Shown here piece after piece: positions 29,981-61,125 of a stretch of 64,000 nt of DNA. The stretch is from the NCBI GenBank assembly GCA_902806565.1, contig CADCXA010000006.1, positions 186,001-250,000 on the forward strand, written 5' to 3'. The notes under the pieces were generated by a model. The model was not told where the DNA came from and did not search any database. It saw only the letters and a program-made list of their open reading frames with translations. The stretch's first letter is position 1. Each line of letters starts with the position of its first letter. Source of the stretch: Hypoxylon rubiginosum (lineage: Eukaryota > Ascomycota > Sordariomycetes > Xylariales > Hypoxylaceae). Made by a program: the position numbers and the translations under genes.

Positions 29981-30013
29981 TTAAATTTATTAAATTTATT
30001 AAATTTATTAAAC
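29981..30013. repeat. 9-bp tandem repeat (ttaaattta)n
   Basis: Nearly four copies of a 9-bp AT-only unit occur in tandem within the AT-rich block. Confidence 0.6.
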
Positions 30014-31809
30014 TTATAAAATAAATTAAAATTATAATATATATAATTTTTATATTATATAAATATATTAAGTTTTTAATAAATTAATATATTTTATTAA
30101 TTTAAATTATAAAAAATATATAAATTAATAATAATATATTAAAAAAAGATTTAATAATAAAATTTATTAATTATAATAAAAATTTAATTATAATATATTT
30201 TTAAATTATATTTAATAAAATTTATTATATTCTTTTATATTTATAATAATTATATTTATAAAAATTATATTTATTTTAAATTTAATTTTATTAAAATTAT
30301 AAATATTTTTTTTAATATATTATATTTTATAATTATATTATTTATAAATATAAATTATTTTTAAAATATATTAAAGTTTTTATAAAAAACTTTTAAATAA
30401 TTTATTTTTTAATTATAATATATTTAAAATAATTATTATTTATTATTTTTTAATTTATTTTTATTATATTTATAAAATAATATTAATTATATTATTAATA
30501 TTATAAAAATAATAATAAACTATTTAAATATTTAAATTAAATATATATTTAAAAATAACTTTTATATATTAAAAATATTAAAAAAATAAAATATTTATTA
30601 ATTAATAAATAATATATAATATAAGTAAAATAAAATATAAAAATAAATTAATAAAATTTAATTAATTATTAAAAAAAAATTTTATTAAAAATAATAAATA
30701 AAAAAAATATATATAAAATTAATTATATATATATAATTATATATATATAATAATATATAAATTATTTATAAATAATTATATTTTTAATAAAAAATAATAT
30801 TATATTATAATTATTTATTATTAAATTTAATATATATATATAATATTTATATAAATTAATTATAAGTTTTATTAAATAATTTATAATATTAATTATATTT
30901 TAATTTTTTAAAAAATATAAAATATATTTATAAATAAAGTTTAAAATTTAAGATTTAAATAATAAATAAATATAAATTTATATTAAATATAAATTTATAA
31001 ATAATATTATAATAAATTTAAATTTAAATATAAATATAATTATAATTAATTATTATAAATTTTTTATAATTTAAATTAATAAATATATTAATTTATTAAA
31101 AAATTAATATAAATATATAATATAAAAATTATATATATTATAATTTAAATTTATTTTATAAGTTTAATAAAAATAATAAATTTATAAAATTTAATATTTT
31201 TATTATTTTAATAATTTTATATAAATTAATAATAAAAATAATATTTAATTTTATTTAATTATAATTAAATATTAAATATATATTTTTTTATTTTATAAAA
31301 TATTTAAATATTATATTTTTATATAAATTTTAATTTTATTAATTAATTAAATATAAAAAATATTAAATTAAACTTTTTTTTATTATTTAATAAAAATATA
31401 TAAATTATATTAATTATATTTAAATTAAATATAATAATTATATAATATATAAAATATAAAAGAAATAATATTTTAATTTTAATATTATAAAATAAATAAT
31501 TATAATAATTTTTAAAAACCTTAATTTTTATAATTTTTAAATAAATAAATTAAATATTTAAAGTTTAATATTAAAAAAAAAAACTAATATTAATATTAAA
31601 AAGTTATAAATATATTTATATTACTAGGTAAATATATTAGCTATATATCACGTGCGGAAGAAAATTAAAAGTTATATTACATTACGTAACAATATCCTAC
31701 TTAATCTTACCTTTTTTTATCAAGGGAAGAAGACCCTTCTTTAACTTTGCTATATTTAATCCTTCCTACTTCGATTTCGTCTTCATGTGCCATTCGAATA
31801 CCAGTCATA

Positions 31810-32599
31810 ATGCCTCTAAAGCTCCACGAACTTAAAAACGATGATGATTTCAAGGCGGTGGTTGAAGTAGAGCACGAGGCATACAGTAATCCGTTCAATG
31901 GCGTCTGGGAAATCACCAAAGGTACCTCTCAAGAGGAATGCCGCGCCCGACAACTATCATGGCATAAAAACGACCCAAACAGCACCTGGCTCTATGTCAC
32001 CGACGAAGAGACCGGCGAAGTGATTGGTGGTGCGCAGTGGTTCGTCTACAGAACGAATCCATATGCCGTCGAGCAGCCAATGCGAACTGCTTACTGGTTA
32101 CCTGACGGTGCGTTTTGGAGGAGGAAAAGCAGAAAGACGATGTATATAGGTGCTAAATGAAGCGATTACTAGGTCCCATGAAGCAGATAGGAGACCAACT
32201 TATCCGTAATTTGAGAAAAGACCGTCCTGCTCGTATGAGCAAGCCGCACCTGCGTAGGTCTTGCTTATACTTCTCGCCCTTGCATCTACTGACTTATCGG
32301 GCAACTCAATAGTGATATCGTATTGTTTTGTACATTCTGCACACAGAAATCGAGGTGCTGCGAGCCTGATGCTGAAATGGGGAACGGTCAAAGCTGATGA
32401 GCTCGGCCTGGAGGCCTTTGTGGAGTCTACCGACATTGCTCGCAGGACGTACGAAAAACATGGGTTTTACGTTATCGATGACCTTAATATGGATGCGCAC
32501 GTAGATAATCCGAGCGAGGAGTTCAGCACAGTGAGAGAGAAGCTCGGATGTCCCATCCATGGTTGGGTTATGAAAAGGGATGTCGTCTCTACCAAGTGA
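31810..32599 (+). CDS. GNAT-family N-acetyltransferase
   Basis: Predicted to transfer an acetyl group from acetyl-CoA to an unidentified amine substrate, probably in the cytosol. The splice model is 31810-32107, 32173-32253 and 32313-32599 (221 residues), with GT-AG introns of 65 and 59 bp. The junctions restore ...YWLPDG-PMKQIGDQ... and ...MSKPHL-LISYCFVH.... The acetyl-CoA-binding part is HSAHRNRGAASLMLKWG (the R-x-x-G-x-G/A type loop), followed by GLEAFVESTD and the YEKHGF motif usual for the last GNAT helix and strand. I chose ATG 31810 because the fungal GNAT N-terminus begins MPLKLHEL; an upstream in-frame ATG at 31747 would add 21 residues. It is the first gene to the right of the RIP-saturated block, only about 170 bp from its edge, yet it is intact. 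A role in modifying the nearby peptide product is speculation. Confidence 0.8.
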
Positions 32600-32912
32600 G
32601 AGCGCAAGCAACCTGCTATAGCTGAGTCTACTCTAACGATTATAATGACCATTACCATTAAAATGATATCTTGAAATAAAGGTTCTGAATGATCACAATT
32701 GGTGTGGACATGTGGCCGATAAATCATATATCTTTGATTGGTAAACCGACATCGTCCCCGCTTCTTCTCTCCGAGGTAACATATAAGAATGTCACACCTC
32801 ATAAAAATGTTCATTCTGGTTCGTAGAACACACAAACGTCCTGCTTCCCTAAGGAGATGTCGACCATTTCTTAAAAGTTGAAGTTGAGACCGGTTTCGAC
32901 CTTTGCTCTAAG
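32600..32912. other. Intergenic, promoter region of MFS gene
   Basis: About 310 bp separate the GNAT stop from the MFS start on the same strand. No further motif was recognised. Confidence 0.5.
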
Positions 32913-34556
32913 ATGGTCGGACCTATTGATACGACCCCTGAGGTCGCCATACCGTACGATGTAATAGAAACTGCCGACGCGATGGAGAAAGCGGCCCCGC
33001 CCTCGACATTATCCGAGAAGACTGCTTCAGATCGAGAAGAGAGAGGACAGGGCATTCTTGTAGACTTTGACGATGAAGGCGACCTATCAAATCCTCAAAA
33101 TTGGTCTCCGAAGCTCAAATGGTCTCTTATTGTGCTAGTATCGGCATTGGATTTCGCAGTGCAAGTCTCCCACCCCCCAATTAAGCGCACTCGTTCGTGC
33201 TAATGCGATCTCTTGCTCCAGAACTCTTGGGACGATTATATGTGCGCCCGTTGCACCTCAGATCTTGGATGAGTTCCATCAGGAGAACACCCTCTACATA
33301 ACCCTCATCGTATCGATCTGGGAACTGGGAGAAATCATAGGCCCGCTTATCGTTGCTCCTTTATCTGAGCTTTATGGAAGATTCTACATCTATCATGCCG
33401 GCACTATCCTGTTTATCGTATTCTCGGCTGCCTGCGCCCTGAGTACCAACATCCAGATGTTGGTGGCCTTCCGCTTTCTGAACGGGGTGGCGGTAGTATC
33501 TACCGCCCTGAACCCTAGCGTGGTCGGCGACCTCTTCCGGGTTGAACAGCGAGGAAGCGCGATGGCAATGGTAGGACTCGCACCGATGCTTGGGCCTGTC
33601 GTTGGCCCTATTATAGGAGGCTACCTTGGAGGCTCACTGGGCTGGCGCTGGTGCTTCTGGCTTATCACAATCTTGTGCGGCTTTCTCGAGATCTGTTTTC
33701 TATTGCTGCTGCGTGAAACCTATACTGTCCAGATCCTGAAAAGAAAAGCCAAGCAACTTCGGAAAGATACAAACAACCCCAACCTCCGAACCAAGTACGA
33801 AACCGAACATACAGCGGCGCAACTGTTTAAAAATGCTTGTGTCCGGCCGCTAGTCTTGCTTTTCACGTCGCCGATATTGTTTCTAATGTCACTGTACGTC
33901 GGTGTGGTGTATGGATACCTCTATCTTGTCATGACAACAATCACGAGCGTTTTCGAAAGCACTTATCAGTTCTCATCAGATGTAGTCGGCCTTAGCTTTT
34001 TGGGACTTGGTGAGCTCCAACCTACACCACCATCACATTCTTTCTTGCTGACTCTCTTCATGTAGGTCTTGGCTGTGTCATTGGGGTTTTCGTGTGCCGT
34101 TCGACTCTCGATCTCTGGGTTCGACAAAAATCCAAAACTTCACAAATGCGACCCGAGCAGCGTTTACCACCCGTCATCTTCGGTGGTTTTATTCTCCCTA
34201 TCGGTCTCTTCATGTACGGCTGGACGGCCGAGGCTCATGTCCAATACATGGCGCCGATTATCGCTACTGGAATTCTAGGAGTGGGCCTTGTATCTACTAC
34301 GATCCCGGTACGTAGCTACTTGGTAGACGCGTTTGGGATATACTCTGCAAGTGCGATTGCAGGTTGCGCTGTGTTTAGGAACCTTGGTGGAACTTTCATG
34401 CCCCTTGCCGGACCCCCCTTATACCAACAGCTAGGACTGGGCTGGGGAAACTCGGTGCTTGGTTTTATTGCGCTAGCCTTCATACCCGTTCCTCTGCTCC
34501 TGATGAGGTATGGTGAGGCTTTGAGATTGAGGGACAAGCGGAAATTCGAGGCATAG
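32913..34556 (+). CDS. MFS transporter, DHA1 (12-helix drug:H+ antiporter) type
   Basis: Predicted plasma-membrane exporter of small molecules. The spliced model is 32913-33160, 33222-34009 and 34066-34556, giving 508 residues, the normal DHA1 length. The hydrophilic N-terminus ends in the usual DPxNWS-like signature (DLSNPQNWSPKLKW). Helix 2-3 carries a motif A-like ELGEIIGPLIVAPLSELYGR, and the antiporter motif C region is GPVVGPIIGGYLGG followed by LGWRWCFW. The second half contains STTIPVRSYLVDAFGIYSAS and GPPLYQQLGLGWG, typical of fungal DHA1 proteins. Intron 1 is GC-AG: the donor reads GT|GCAAGT, and no GT donor keeps the frame. Intron 2 is a regular 56-bp GT-AG intron. The gene lies about 1.1 kb from the 3' end of the UstYa-like gene and may export the peptide product; that link is inference. 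Substrate unknown. Confidence 0.88.
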
Positions 34557-35705: not shown

Positions 35706-36685
35706 TTAGTCAAACCAGCTCCATTTCTTCTCTTCCGCCGGCTTCCAATCATCACCCTTTCCAAAATACGCCCGTACCTTTTCTAATTCCGGACTTCCCT
35801 CGGGGCAGAACCTCATTCTCGGAAGCTGGCTTGGTTGAGCATCTTCCAAGGTATGGTTCCCATAGCGATAACAGCCTGGATGAGCAAGTGTCCATTCCTG
35901 GAGCGCGTCAAAGCTACGACACTGGCGGAACTGCTGCGAAGCCGTGACGTGAGCCGTCGAGCGGTTTGTGACACGGAGCGTGTCGTCTGCCTGGCAGAAA
36001 GTATCTGCAAGCAACTGATCTAAACAGTGGACAACATGCGCATACGGTACCGTAGGAGGCGCATTGAGTCGGTGGTCTCTAAAGGCTCGATAGACGTTTT
36101 TCTGTGTGAAGCTTTAGTACGCAAAGAATATGGGGGATCTACGCTACTTACCAAACAGTGCAGGCTATGGTATGCATTTACAAAGTAGAGAGACTTGTCG
36201 GTGTCCCAAGGGAATGTGGTGCCTTCGGGTAACCCTTTCTCTTTCGCCCATGACTTAGGTACGGCAACAAGACCGGAGTCTATGTCCAGACGATCCCAAA
36301 GATGATCTCGCACATCATCGTCAGGATCTGTGTAGGCACCACTCTGGTTCCAAAATACCTTTATATCGTCTTCCACCAAGCCGGCTACAGCAATCTATGA
36401 GTAACGCTCTCTCAATATTGTCAATAGAATGTTGACTGTACCATATTTCGATCGATGGGTTCCTGTCTCACCCTCAGGGATAGGGGAAATGTTGAGCTTG
36501 TATAGGCCGAGCTGTAGAATATTCAAAGAGATCGAGATGATCACAGCGATTATCAAAGCCAAATTGAATATATATGATCTAGTGTCATCTTTGTCCGCAC
36601 TTAGCAAGTGTGGGGGTTTGAGATCTTGAACATCGTCGTTCTTCTCTTCACCCATCAAAGGTTTATATTCGTGTTCTCTGGCCAT
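35706..36685 (-). CDS. UstYa-family (DUF3328) oxidase-like protein
   Basis: UstYa/DUF3328 proteins are membrane-anchored fungal oxidases that crosslink or cyclise core peptides in dikaritin RiPP pathways such as ustiloxin; their paired HxxHC motifs are needed for activity. The model has three exons on the minus strand, 36685-36442, 36384-36152 and 36101-35706 (290 residues), with GT-AG introns of 57 and 50 bp. A cytosolic N-terminus of about 37 residues is followed by one membrane helix (about residues 38-60), then the family's SKYAGL segment spanning the first splice. Motif 1 is HSLHC (154-158) and motif 2 is HVVHCLD (181-187). The C-terminal CRSFDALQEWTLAH and YRYGN are also family-like. 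No lesion was seen. The gene is divergent from the repeat precursor gene with 591 bp between start codons, which makes co-regulation plausible. UstYa homologues also occur outside RiPP clusters, so the pathway role rests on the neighbour. Confidence 0.9.
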
Positions 36686-37276
36686 CGTGTAGGTCTCCGG
36701 AAATGGGTCCTTATGTTGGGAACTAGATTGAAGACCTCTAGGTGGATGGGAGTTAAGACGTAAATGCTGCTGACGCGTCGAGCCATGACGACGAAGTACT
36801 AGCAAAGGAGAGGGGTCGTCGTGCGATCGTATCTCTCTCCAATGAACCCGACAGCGGCAGCATTTCCGTAAATGGCATCTGCATGGCGGGATCGGCATTA
36901 AACCCGCATATATCCTGATATTCCGAGTCCTGGAATCGCAAGACGTGGTTACACAAAAGATTGTGTTACATTCTGATGGCACCCTTTGTATAGGTACGTC
37001 TGCTCGTCACCGCTAATGGTCTAGTCTTACATTACTGACTGTGGAACAAGGACTCGTCAACTCGCCTTGGCACGGGCCGGTAGGCAATTGCTTATTATCT
37101 GTCCCCATGATTCGGGTCTAGATCCAGATACCTTTCATCGTATAAAGCCCTGATATTTTCGCGAACTTCGGCCAAGAATTCTGGAACTCCCCGAACATTT
37201 TCTCGAGCTCTACATCAATCATATCATCACCGTTTCCGATACAACTTGGCATTTTACAAACTTCGTCTGTGTCAAG
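36686..37276. promoter_or_regulatory. Shared divergent promoter of UstYa-like and precursor genes
   Basis: The 591 bp between the two start codons must carry both promoters. A TATAAAG sits on the precursor side. No transcription-factor palindrome could be assigned by eye. Short frames overlapping the UstYa side are taken as leader sequence. Confidence 0.6.
37141..37147 (+). promoter_or_regulatory. TATA-box candidate for the precursor gene
   Basis: TATAAAG lies 136 bp upstream of the ATG at 37277. A C/T- and A-rich stretch (atcaatcatatcatcacc) follows, suitable for a transcription start and leader. Confidence 0.5.
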
Positions 37277-37565
37277 ATGCTCGTCAATAAACTTGTCCTG
37301 CTGGCGTGGGGGGTTGTCTCAACCGCCATTGCCCTGCCATTGGGTAAGTGGACTGCCGCATACTTAGGAGACGAAGATCGCTTCGAGCTAACCAGCGTCT
37401 TCAGATACAACTGCCGATAAATCTGTGCTCGTTGCTGAGCGGGATGATGGAGATGTCTTCGAACCAGGTAGTTTTGCTAGACGGGATGAGGGAGATATCT
37501 TTGAGCCTGGGAGCTTTGCTAAACGGGACGACGGGGACGTCTTCGAGCCTGGAAGCTTTGCATAG
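37277..37565 (+). CDS. Candidate RiPP (dikaritin-type) precursor, secreted, three kexin-flanked repeats
   Basis: A 75-residue secretory precursor predicted to be cut by Kex2-type protease into a short, repeated peptide. Two exons, 37277-37343 and 37405-37565, are joined by a 61-bp GT-AG intron with a GCTAAC branch site at about 37387. Residues 1-19 form a signal peptide (basic start MLVNK, hydrophobic core, AIA cleavage site). A short leader (about 20-33) precedes three 14-residue repeats at 34-47, 48-61 and 62-75. Each starts ER, RR or KR and continues D-(D/E)-G-D-(V/I)-F-E-P-G-S-F-A; the last alanine is the C-terminus. This is the layout of dikaritin precursors and kexin-processed peptides, and a UstYa-family gene is its divergent neighbour. 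The core has two Phe and no Tyr or Cys. An alternative acceptor at 37394 would insert three residues in frame before the repeats. A linear secreted peptide is the main alternative. The product is unknown. Confidence 0.8.
37437..37562 (+). repeat. Three 42-bp in-frame repeats encoding the candidate core peptide
   Basis: Units lie at 37437-37478, 37479-37520 and 37521-37562. The 12-codon cores of units 1 and 3 differ at nine codons, all at third positions and all synonymous. Unit 2 differs in two conservative residues (D to E and V to I). The pattern indicates old duplication with selection on the peptide. Confidence 0.9.
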
Positions 37566-37795
37566 TCTAGTCATCGCCTTCTACTAAGTCGATGACAATG
37601 GTGGTCCATTGATATCACCATCATAGGTATATACCTTAGAAGGGTCGGGGCAATAGGGAGTAATGAAATGGGGGAGAATGGAAGTCGAATATGGCAAGAT
37701 GTATGATAACAACTCCTTAGGGAAACAGAGGTCATCTATCTGAAGCATAACAACATACGTGATAGTCATTAGAATTTTGTTAAGCTCTTTGTTAA

Positions 37796-38307
37796 GAGCT
37801 GTGCTATTTGGAGAGTGTTTGCAGAGTGTTTTTGATTAGCTAGCAACCTGACAACCCGGCTGTTACTTTGGGAAGCCGCTTGCTTGGTATAACCTCAATT
37901 TTTCTACTTGTTTTGCTGTTTTGCTTTGCTACAATCCAAATGCTTCACTACCAAGCTCCAGGTATTAAAAGAGGCCAGGGAAAGAGGGCCTAAGAACGAA
38001 GGGGCTTATCATCTACGCTATTTTTCCTCGTACCAGCAGACCCGCGACCCCTATCCAGGCGATAGGGTGATCAAAATATATGTAACCTTACCTAGACTAG
38101 ATAGCAAAGGCTAGAGCCCCGGCAGCCATGTAGCTAATCTATGTGATGAAGTCGTTGTGAATTGCTTCAAAATATTATAAATAGCTATAAATATTTAATG
38201 TAGGTACCTACCTACCTAAGGTAGTTCGTATACGGGGCCATATTGCTAGCTGGCCTAGTGGGTCCAAAAACACTCTGCGAATACCCTCCGAACAGCAAGC
38301 ACAGCTC
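37796..38307. mobile_element. MITE-like element with imperfect terminal inverted repeats
   Basis: The left arm 37796-37846 and the reverse complement of 38243-38307 share gagctgtgct, a ggag-gt-tt block, gcagagtgtttttg and agctagcaa in the same order. The right arm carries extra bases between blocks. About 400 bp of non-coding sequence lies between. A gctctttgttaag motif is present beside both arms in the same orientation. No target-site duplication was settled and no transposase is present. Confidence 0.5.
38204..38225 (+). repeat. TACCTA-type motif, 22-bp exact match to 46127-46148
   Basis: gtacctacctacctaaggta followed by gt is shared exactly by the two sites, 7.9 kb apart. Similar taggtac/ctacct strings recur in several intergenic regions of the window. 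Confidence 0.6.
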
Positions 38308-38680
38308 TTTGTTAAGGCCCGGGGGTAATGAACCAACACTGGCTCGCCATTGTGTTGCTTCCTATTGTTAGGGGTAAATAGCCGGGACCACAATGGGAGT
38401 TACACAGTCTAATTCACACGTGTATAAATCGACGGAAGGTTAACATCGAAACTGGAAGGCACGACGAAAAGGACGACTCCTCCGGGGCAACACAATCACC
38501 TCCACTTGGTAGGTAGATAGCTACCTCAGGTAGGTAACTAGGACATTTCCCCCTAACACTAGTGAGATAAGGCAAACAACTAAGACTACCTTACCTAGTG
38601 AATCACGAGTCGCCGCTGAAAGGTCAAACTTAGGTGCACGGTCTACACAGTTTTCACCTTAGGCCACTCTAATCAAATAC

Positions 38681-58585: not shown

Positions 58586-60285
58586 CTAGGAAACCTTTTG
58601 CCTCTTCGGGTCGGTTCCTCCGCCGCCGGCACCCTGGCCCGGACCGTTCGTCGAGACTTCCGTCAACGGCGCCCTGTTACCCGGTTCGGCGCCCGCAGGA
58701 GCCGGCCGCTTTACTGTCAGCGGCCGGTATTGGCCCCTATTTGCCAATGGACTTCCCGGTCCTCCCGGGGCGCCGATCTGTCTCGTATGATTCAGCGCGG
58801 GGTTGCCAACGCCGCCCATAGTCGGTCTACTAGGCCCTGATCCAGCTCCGCTCGTAAAGCCGTTGTTCGGCGGAGCGGGGCCTCGTTGCGGCTCTTGGTC
58901 CCTACTGACAGGCGGGACATGCTGCCCGGTTCTCGACACCGGCTTTGAGGAGTTGTGATCGATACCCGGTGTTTTCCGGATTGAAGGGCTCTCTAATCGA
59001 GGATTAAATAGCTTAGCGCCCTGCGCCGCGATAACAGCCGCGTCGGGAGGGGCGTCTTCGGCGAGTTTCTTGATCGATCGCGCCGAAAAGAACGATACCG
59101 GCTCTGGTGTCGATGCGCCACTACGGGGTGGCGTGTTGATATTATTGTTCGCCGCTGCTTGTTGGGCAACGGAGTTGATGTGGTTCGGGGGTTTTGGATA
59201 TTGCTGCGGATTAGGACGGCTTTGGTAAGGGGCAGCTGGCCGCTGGGGTGGTTGGTTCGGAGTTTGGGGCTGTCTAGCAGGTTGGGCAGCCGGTCTCGGG
59301 GGCGGTTGCATCGATTTGGAAGCACTGTTTGCGGATGGCATACTGCGATCACTATTATTGCCAGCAGGCAAAGCTTGAGACTTCTCGTTTGAACTGGCTC
59401 CGTGAGAACCGGACAGCACTACCTCGTCGGGATGGCCCTCATCTGTGACACCAAAATCGACCATGTCAAAATCTCCAAAGTCTTCGTCAAGTAAGTCCGG
59501 AACTACAAATCCAGCATATCAGCATCCGCCCAATCGATATCATCAGAGTCAAACCCACCGTGCGCGCTCATCTTCTCGGCACCCTTGTCCACCTGATTCT
59601 TAGGTTCCACCTTTACAACCTCGGGCTCTTTCTTGATGAAATCTGAGTGGCGGTGTAGGTTATTCTCATCAAACTTGACAGGCCCAACCTTCATCTTGGT
59701 GACCTTGGACAGGTACTCCTTGTCGTATATGCAGTTGCCAAGAACATTGCCAAAATTCCGCAGCGCCCGCTTCAACGCATCCGTAGTTCCCTCTTTCTTA
59801 GCCTTCTCAAAGGCAGCGGCCTTTCCTTTACAGTTTTCGATGTGGCCGTATCCGATATCTTCATGGTACGTGCCGTCTCGCAGGGTTACGCGAACGATGA
59901 CGGACAGACCGAGGGAGATCTTAAAGGTTTGGGGATTCTCGTCAACAAAGTCGACCTGAATATTCTGGATGCCGGACGACCATCCGTTGAAGCCGAAGAC
60001 TTCGTTCGCGAGAGCGATGCATTTTTCGGCGGCGATATAGTGGACCTTCTGGCCGGAGGGGCCGCTTCGTGAGGAAAGGTATTCGGGGCCTAGTTGTTTC
60101 TCTAATCGTGATTGCAAGGTGGCAATTTGGGTAGCTGTGAATTCGGAGATTCGAGGCTTGGCTTCCTCGAAGGGATTGGCGATGCCGTTGTGCTGTTCAC
60201 CCGGACTACTCATACATGTCAGCTTCAGGACGCGTCTTGGGACAGATGGAAGAGTAAAACAGCAAAACCTAACATACGCTGGCAT
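58586..60285 (-). CDS. RAD52: RAD52 homologous-recombination mediator
   Basis: Nuclear protein that loads RAD51 and anneals single strands during recombinational repair. The minus-strand model has an 8-nt first exon 60285-60278, then 60205-59559 and 59502-58586, giving 523 residues. Intron 1 (72 bp) has donor GTATGT and branch GCTGAC and yields the N-terminus MPAPGEQHNGIANPFEE. The conserved annealing domain spans about residues 15-190: LGPEYLSSRSGPSGQKVHYI, NEVFGFNGWSS, EKAKKEGTTDALKRALRNFG and GNCIYDKEYL. Intron 2 (56 bp, GTGGGT...TTGTAG) restores VPDLLDEDFGDFDMVDFG. If it is retained, the frame runs 18 more codons to a TAG. The C-terminal half is Pro/Gln/Asn-rich and probably disordered, with SFFSARSIKKLAED as a likely partner-binding segment and a basic KRQK end. 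The identification is secure; the second intron is the least certain part. Confidence 0.93.
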
Positions 60286-61125
60286 CGCGACAGGATTGCG
60301 AATGCAAAGTAATCATTGAATTACCAAGCACATTACAAGAGCGAAAGGGTAGATGATGACGAGTTGTCGTTTCTTATGATTCTTTTAACCGTCCTAATGC
60401 AGTACTGAAATGGGTGACGCGGGTACGTTACAACAGCTGAAGGTGGAAGACGTATTGGTCAAAGGCACTAATTTGGGGCGGAGTGGAACACTGAACAGTG
60501 GGAACAGCGCTGCAATCCCCCCCACTTTGATTGCATAATACGCGTTAGGCAGACACCAAGTCACCTGACACCAACAACTACTGTACTACAGATGTACCTA
60601 GGTACTTACGGAACTTACCCATTCCCCCTTCATCCGTGCCGCCATCCCTCAGAGATAGAACCACGAGACAGATGTAATCTAGACGCAGCAATTGCCGAAT
60701 GTTCAGAACGATCGATCCCCTTTCCAGTCACATAATACTACTTCATTAACACTCTCTTTTGTAACGCAGAATCCTGTTCATTGACTGTTGTTATCCTGCA
60801 ACTACTCGTTCTATCTAGAAATATCGATTGCCAGCATATTGAGTAGGCCCTAATCTATACGTATCAGGCAAGACTACTATCAATTGCCACGGCAGCTTTC
60901 GATGCACGGTGACTTCGTGTCGGACAGAAGAAACGGAGTAGGGAAGTCCAGTAAGATGGGTATCGACGTCGTGAGATCAGGCTCTTGAGCACGTATTCGC
61001 AACTATTTCTTGTCAGGACACAGCGTATGGTAAGAATCAAATGAAGATATGTAACTCACGAGTAGGATTGTACACTTGGTGCCATCGTTGTAGTTCCACG
61101 ACCTCTTCGTATCCCAGCTGTCGTC
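60286..61125. other. Intergenic, RAD52 promoter side
   Basis: The 840 bp contain no convincing frame. This is the upstream region of RAD52 and the 3' flank of the next minus-strand gene. Confidence 0.5.

Follow-up and report, generated by a model that had tools for sequence, protein, structure and literature searches.

A repeat precursor and a single UstYa gene in Hypoxylon rubiginosum very probably represent an undescribed member of a known fungal peptide class

In a 64,000-nt stretch of DNA from Hypoxylon rubiginosum (bases 186001-250000 of contig C6; assembly of 48.27 Mb in 70 contigs), which we call the window, a short spliced gene with three repeats lies head-to-head with a gene of the UstYa (DUF3328) family. 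Does this pair form a UstY-type RiPP locus, as the original prediction had proposed, and what could a single UstYa do to a core peptide that contains no tyrosine? To answer this we analyzed both genes, their surroundings and their relatives. The two gene structures are as follows, with P0001-P0005 denoting the precursor proteins found in our searches (P0001 being the window's own precursor) and P0006 a relative of the UstYa protein:

37277-37565, + strand: precursor gene, one 61-nt intron, 75 aa, ATG at 37277
37277..37343, + strand: precursor exon 1, hydrophobic N-terminus (residues 1-22), likely signal peptide; similar in P0002, P0003 and P0005, absent from P0004
37344..37404, + strand: precursor intron, 61 nt, GTAAGT ... 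GCTAAC ... CAG; junction matches annotated relatives and P0001
37405..37565, + strand: precursor exon 2, pro-region and three repeats, stop 37563-37565
37437..37478, + strand: repeat unit 1, ER-DDGDVFEPGSFA
37479..37520, + strand: repeat unit 2, RR-DEGDIFEPGSFA
37521..37562, + strand: repeat unit 3, KR-DDGDVFEPGSFA
36686..37276, no strand: intergenic stretch of 591 nt between the divergent start codons, presumed common promoter region (function inferred)
36685-35706, - strand: UstYa gene, three exons, 290 aa
36442..36685, - strand: UstYa exon 1, single membrane helix (residues 39-57, about 36515-36571), a helix also present in the model of P0006
36152..36384, - strand: UstYa exon 2, HSLHC at 36155-36169
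35706..36101, - strand: UstYa exon 3, HVVHC at 36024-36038, stop 35706-35708; PF11807 match at C6:221880-222092

The precursor protein of 75 aa reads MLVNKLVLLAWGVVSTAIALPLDTTADKSVLVA, followed by ER-DDGDVFEPGSFA, RR-DEGDIFEPGSFA and KR-DDGDVFEPGSFA, and the predicted spliced ORF with three 14-residue repeats starting with ER, RR and KR thus proved correct to the base. An alternative acceptor at 37396 is also in frame and would give a precursor of 78 aa; the acceptor at 37405 is favoured because P0002, P0003 and P0005 read on as 'ALPLN' at this junction. By hydropathy alone the N-terminus, with 11-residue windows of up to 2.09 and a resemblance to that of three of the four relatives, is likely to be a signal peptide. 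No Pfam family matches P0001 at E <= 0.001.

The repeats are strongly periodic. After residue 22 the precursor shows 24 identities in 40 positions at a lag of 14, whereas 100,000 shuffles gave at most 14 over all lags of 5-29, which rules out a chance origin. Between units 1 and 3 there are nine synonymous and no non-synonymous differences in 12 codons, while units 1 and 2 differ by five synonymous and two non-synonymous changes and units 2 and 3 by six and two. As synonymous changes are many and the amino acids are kept, it is the peptide that appears to be conserved, under purifying selection, and not the DNA, as far as three units of one gene with few sites can tell; the many synonymous differences likewise rule out a recent DNA duplication behind the similarity of the units. 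A repeat element could also be rejected, since the precursor DNA (37050-37770) occurs at a single place in the genome with no second copy, unlike an element just downstream of it. The latter, at 37790-38316, has 33-nt inverted ends (85% complementary) with perfect outer arms of 12 nt, and at least 68% identity links it to 44 matching genome pieces including itself, so that it is MITE-like. A DUF7730 gene is also located downstream of the precursor.

The divergent gene had been read as a DUF3328/UstYa gene keeping both HxxHC motifs and one membrane helix, and this is what we found. Its protein of 290 aa matches the Pfam family UstYa (PF11807) with 69.9 bits (E 3.6e-19, cut-off 25), carries HSLHC at residues 154-158 and HVVHC at 181-185, and has one hydrophobic helix, the best 19-residue hydrophobic window being residues 39-57. 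The H, H and C of both motifs are invariant in an alignment of 22 sequences, which included neither the window protein nor fragments P0027, P0028 and P0030. Eleven relatives (P0006-P0016), all from Xylariales, align over the full length with 64-89% identity and show no gap of theirs at either splice junction. The fold model of P0006 is of moderate overall confidence (pLDDT 65.4, pTM 0.47); it contains the expected N-terminal helix (residues 30-65), and the better-scored region lies near the HxxHC helices, with block means of 78-93 in residues 101-190. Comparison of this model with solved structures gave no useful match, and a profile search found no relative with a solved structure for UstYa-type oxidases.

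When about 5.77 billion proteins were searched with the precursor sequence, five of 268 candidates reached E <= 1, and a profile built from them returned the same five at E <= 10 among 2,128 candidates. P0001 is identical to the window precursor over 75 aa and derives from a 1,879-nt contig of the source 'lgn'. Identity amounts to 79% for P0002 (H. fuscum), 77% for P0003 (H. cercidicola), 63% over 85% for P0005 (Whalleya microplaca) and 70% over 71% for P0004, which is without the N-terminal part. We take lgn to consist of assembled public reads. Three of its UstYa rows (P0027, P0028 and P0030) run straight into an intron, and a fourth (P0026) is unbroken; as rows were left unspliced, lgn seems not to splice genomic DNA, and we infer that the spliced P0001 points to an RNA-derived contig. 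The spliced and fully identical P0001 therefore suggests that the window precursor is transcribed. No UstYa entry as identical as P0001 was returned in the UstYa search, the best reaching 89%.

For each of the three species-named precursors a close relative of the UstYa protein lies on a contig that is equally long (72170 in H. fuscum, 2046320 in H. cercidicola and 1513493 in W. microplaca), and from equal length and species we conclude that precursor and UstYa probably share one contig in these relatives; in H. cercidicola the tags of the pair are F4818DRAFT_438683 and _438682. Conservation of the ORF together with DUF3328 neighbours, the point on which the prediction could have failed, is thus probable in three of three named species and lends support to the UstY-type RiPP reading. 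For eight further Xylariales UstYa relatives, labelled orthologues by similarity alone (H. texense, H. rubiginosum, H. sp. FL1150, H. sp. FL1284, H. crocopeplum, H. sp. NC1633, Daldinia decipiens and D. bambusicola), the precursor searches gave no partner, and P0004 might belong to one of them. Small spliced ORFs often stay unannotated, which could explain this absence, and loss is possible as well. More distant UstYa relatives occur in Hymenoscyphus, Tricladium, Lachnellula, Ciborinia and Sclerotinia, which we take to be Leotiomycetes, again with no precursor in the precursor searches.

From the five precursors 14 units can be aligned, leaving out the degenerate third Whalleya segment (P0002-P0004 have three units each, Whalleya two and a remnant). 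Their core reads D-D/E-G-D-I/V-F-E-P-G-S-F-A. Four residues (D1, P8, G9 and A12) never vary. F6, E7 and F11 are each found in 13 of the 14 units, D4 in 12 and S at position 10 in ten, and position 5 holds I six times, V five times, Y twice and D once. The units of the window precursor and of P0002, P0003 and P0004 are free of tyrosine, and both tyrosines at position 5 belong to Whalleya units; W and C are absent from the core units of the window. The R before each unit (R35, R49 and R63) is invariant in all five precursors and is preceded by K or R in 12 of the 14 units. Unit 1 is preceded by KR in P0002-P0005 and by ER in the window, and in P0003 TR stands ahead of unit 2; such ER and TR sites may release less peptide. 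The core had been called unfamiliar from described products, and we found no published paper text that contains it.

Kex2-processed repeat proteins (KEPs) are described as having at least three tandem repeats of at least eight residues between KR, KK, RK or RR (PMC7329392). The window precursor has three 12-residue repeats, with ER before unit 1, and P0002 has KR before all three. According to the same survey 65.6% of the repeated sequences in DUF3328-linked KEPs contain tyrosine (PMC7329392), and a tyrosine-free core therefore belongs to a minority, yet is not rare.

Past the 3' end of the UstYa gene the order is an MFS gene, a GNAT gene and then a 27.5-kb block of low GC content:

32853..34553, + strand: MFS transporter gene, approximate bounds, frames 33139-34062 and 34014-34553, PF07690 E 9.5e-37; candidate export partner
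31705..32596, + strand: GNAT acetyltransferase gene, approximate bounds, PF00583 E 1e-6 in frame 32258-32593; candidate tailoring partner

Contig C6 carries one UstYa place at E <= 0.001 (PF11807). It gave no match for an S41 peptidase (PF03572), and its sole tyrosinase (PF00264) match lies at 1248227, about 1 Mb off, both counts being lower bounds. No reductase family was matched among the 18 window ORFs scanned with Pfam, which are a part of all window ORFs. The low-GC block (4000-31500) has 6.6% GC, with 15 G/C in 30000-31500, a (CpA+TpG)/(ApC+GpT) ratio of 0.21 and a TpA/ApT ratio of 1.16; from its composition it looks like the product of repeat-induced point mutation in an extreme form, or of some other C-to-T process. 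Elsewhere in the window an ordinary gene of the Rad52/Rad22 family was seen at 59509-60312 (- strand, E 2.3e-64).

We also scanned the genome for at least three similar dibasic-delimited segments, covering 52 stretches (L001-L051 and the window), and obtained three distinct repeat precursors: that of the window (also found as L031), one on C21 (L011) and one on C18 (L017). Both others have tyrosine-containing, KR-delimited units and lie beside UstYa genes. The C21 precursor (L011 108-728, - strand), near UstYa matches, has a signal-like N-terminus and five tyrosine-rich units ending in (S/A)PAYYFYFS, and the C18 precursor (L017 2346-2654, - strand; C18:61706-61975), near several UstYa matches, has five IEDYVI(S/E)VDK units. 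With an S41 peptidase match at 58.3 kb and tyrosinase matches at 74.8-77.2 kb, the C18 locus is, judged by its gene content, the dikaritin-like cluster of this genome. An ustiloxin-like RiPP cluster has been reported from H. rubiginosum, H. pulicicidum and Hypomontagnella (PMC8403587), and our guess is that the C18 locus corresponds to it. Repeat precursors were found at three of 23 UstYa loci versus none of 14 controls, a difference that is not significant. The closest relative of the window UstYa in its own genome is on C24 (C24:318391-321577), with 37-38% identity in two matched stretches and no repeat precursor within flanks of roughly 1.5 kb, and the window UstYa has no match to L011 and L017 at E <= 1e-4. 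The genome also contains a P domain of the Kex2 type (C21, 66.1 bits).

These data suggest the following biosynthesis model. The 75-aa precursor would enter the secretory pathway via its signal peptide, which would be cleaved off, and a general Kex2 protease in the Golgi would cut after the basic pairs. Trimming of the C-terminal basic residues would then leave up to three near-identical 12-residue peptides (D-D/E-G-D-V/I-F-E-P-G-S-F-A). Before or after cutting, the single-pass UstYa, whose catalytic part with the two HxxHC motifs presumably faces the lumen, would oxidise the peptide, most likely at the conserved aromatic and beta-branched residues flanking the E-P-G-S turn (V/I5-F6 and F11). 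The E-P-G-S stretch might bring positions 5/6 and 11 together, and oxidation would yield a macrocycle or a dehydro-residue. The calculated [M+H]+ values are 1255.511 for linear DDGDVFEPGSFA and 1283.543 for linear DEGDIFEPGSFA, with 1253.496 and 1281.527 after loss of 2H and 1251.480 and 1279.511 after loss of 4H. The product would be exported, perhaps with the help of the neighbouring MFS protein.

We therefore have to weigh what kind of locus this is. Very probably the pair is real and belongs, as an undescribed member, to a class of fungal peptide natural products that is already known. It is probably a minimal Kex2/UstYa RiPP locus of the asperipin-like kind, with a single UstYa and an acidic core that lacks tyrosine, although unit 1 follows ER and not KR, only three repeats are present and the core is free of tyrosine. 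The missing tyrosine would also suit linear peptides, in which case Kex2 would release acidic peptides for signalling or defence that stay unmodified, as it does fungal alpha-pheromones, and the neighbouring UstYa would act on some other substrate. The core pattern of fungal alpha-pheromones contains W/C, however, and the unit here has neither; both genes moreover lie on a contig of one length in all three named relatives and head-to-head here. Linear, minimally modified KEP peptides are known, for example in mushrooms (PMC9769878), and a DUF3328 gene is near 22% of the catalogued KEPs and hence not near most, but pheromone-type KEPs have no DUF3328 neighbours with three exceptions (PMC7329392), and we consider the linear alternative improbable. 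A pheromone precursor proper was ruled out, as P0001 has no Pfam match and the relatives have a UstYa partner. It would be more surprising still if a short secreted repeat protein acted whole, in a cell-surface or effector-like role, with basic pairs arisen by chance. Its small size, the lack of a proper Kex2 site at unit 1 and the TR in H. cercidicola agree with this idea, but the conserved R before every unit, the K/R preceding it in most of them and the repeat amino acids kept over strongly diverged synonymous sites make it very improbable.

If the locus is asperipin-like, the action of its UstYa still has to be considered. The enzyme might hydroxylate, desaturate or halogenate a linear 12-mer without any cyclisation, and this is a serious possibility, as the UstYa homologues of phomopsin also desaturate residues (PMC10512285) and the core lacks the tyrosine used in the rings of ustiloxin, phomopsin and asperipin (PMC7329392, PMC9233826). 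On the other hand the victorin ring joins a phenylalanine side chain to leucine, so that Phe can serve in a ring (PMC9233826), and the conserved E-P-G-S between two aromatic positions would suit one. That one UstYa without a tyrosinase rings a tyrosine-free acidic peptide throughout this Xylariales family, by a Phe-Phe or Phe-beta-branched link across the E-P-G-S turn, is a tentative proposal which we hold to be rather doubtful. If true, it would be a new cross-link chemistry for this enzyme family. In any case the locus is simple, combining one UstYa with a short and strongly constrained core that has no tyrosine, and it is therefore well suited to show what one such enzyme does by itself and which residues it targets.

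Among known systems, ustiloxin and phomopsin share with our locus a signal-like N-terminus, a Kex2-type repeat precursor and a UstYa-family protein with two HxxHC motifs, and the accompaniment of a KEP gene by a UstYa gene, here head-to-head, is a dikaritin trait. Their loci carry more enzymes, whereas the window gave no match for a second UstYa, a tyrosinase or an S41 peptidase and has no tyrosine core; the pairing seen here agrees with asperipin-type loci. The victorin cluster encodes peptidases, of which none was seen at the window locus, and its core sequence is presumably unrelated to ours. Victorin, listed among the five reported dikaritins (PMC10512285, 2022), has its ring via phenylalanine and not tyrosine (PMC9233826), and our core likewise offers Phe. 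A Hypoxylaceae survey of metabolite genes, whose templates were three known precursors, mentions in the sections available to us only the ustiloxin-like RiPP cluster (PMC8403587). UstY Clan R2 of lichen fungi also has a single ustY gene with GNAT-family gene(s) near, but no conserved repeats were identified in that clan (PMC12048977), in contrast to the three of the window precursor. Closest is asperipin-2a from Aspergillus flavus, also with one UstYa-family gene and a Kex2-processed repeat precursor. Its locus is described with one ustY gene together with genes for a transporter and a reductase (PMC12048977); an MFS gene is near in the window too, no reductase family was matched among the 18 ORFs scanned, and a GNAT gene lies nearby. 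Asperipin rings use tyrosines (PMC9233826), whereas our core is a tyrosine-free acidic 12-mer. As 1,758 KEPs with DUF3328 neighbours (22% of 7,878) were already catalogued in silico in 2020 (PMC7329392), the window locus joins a known kind, and what is new about it is its specific core rather than the system.
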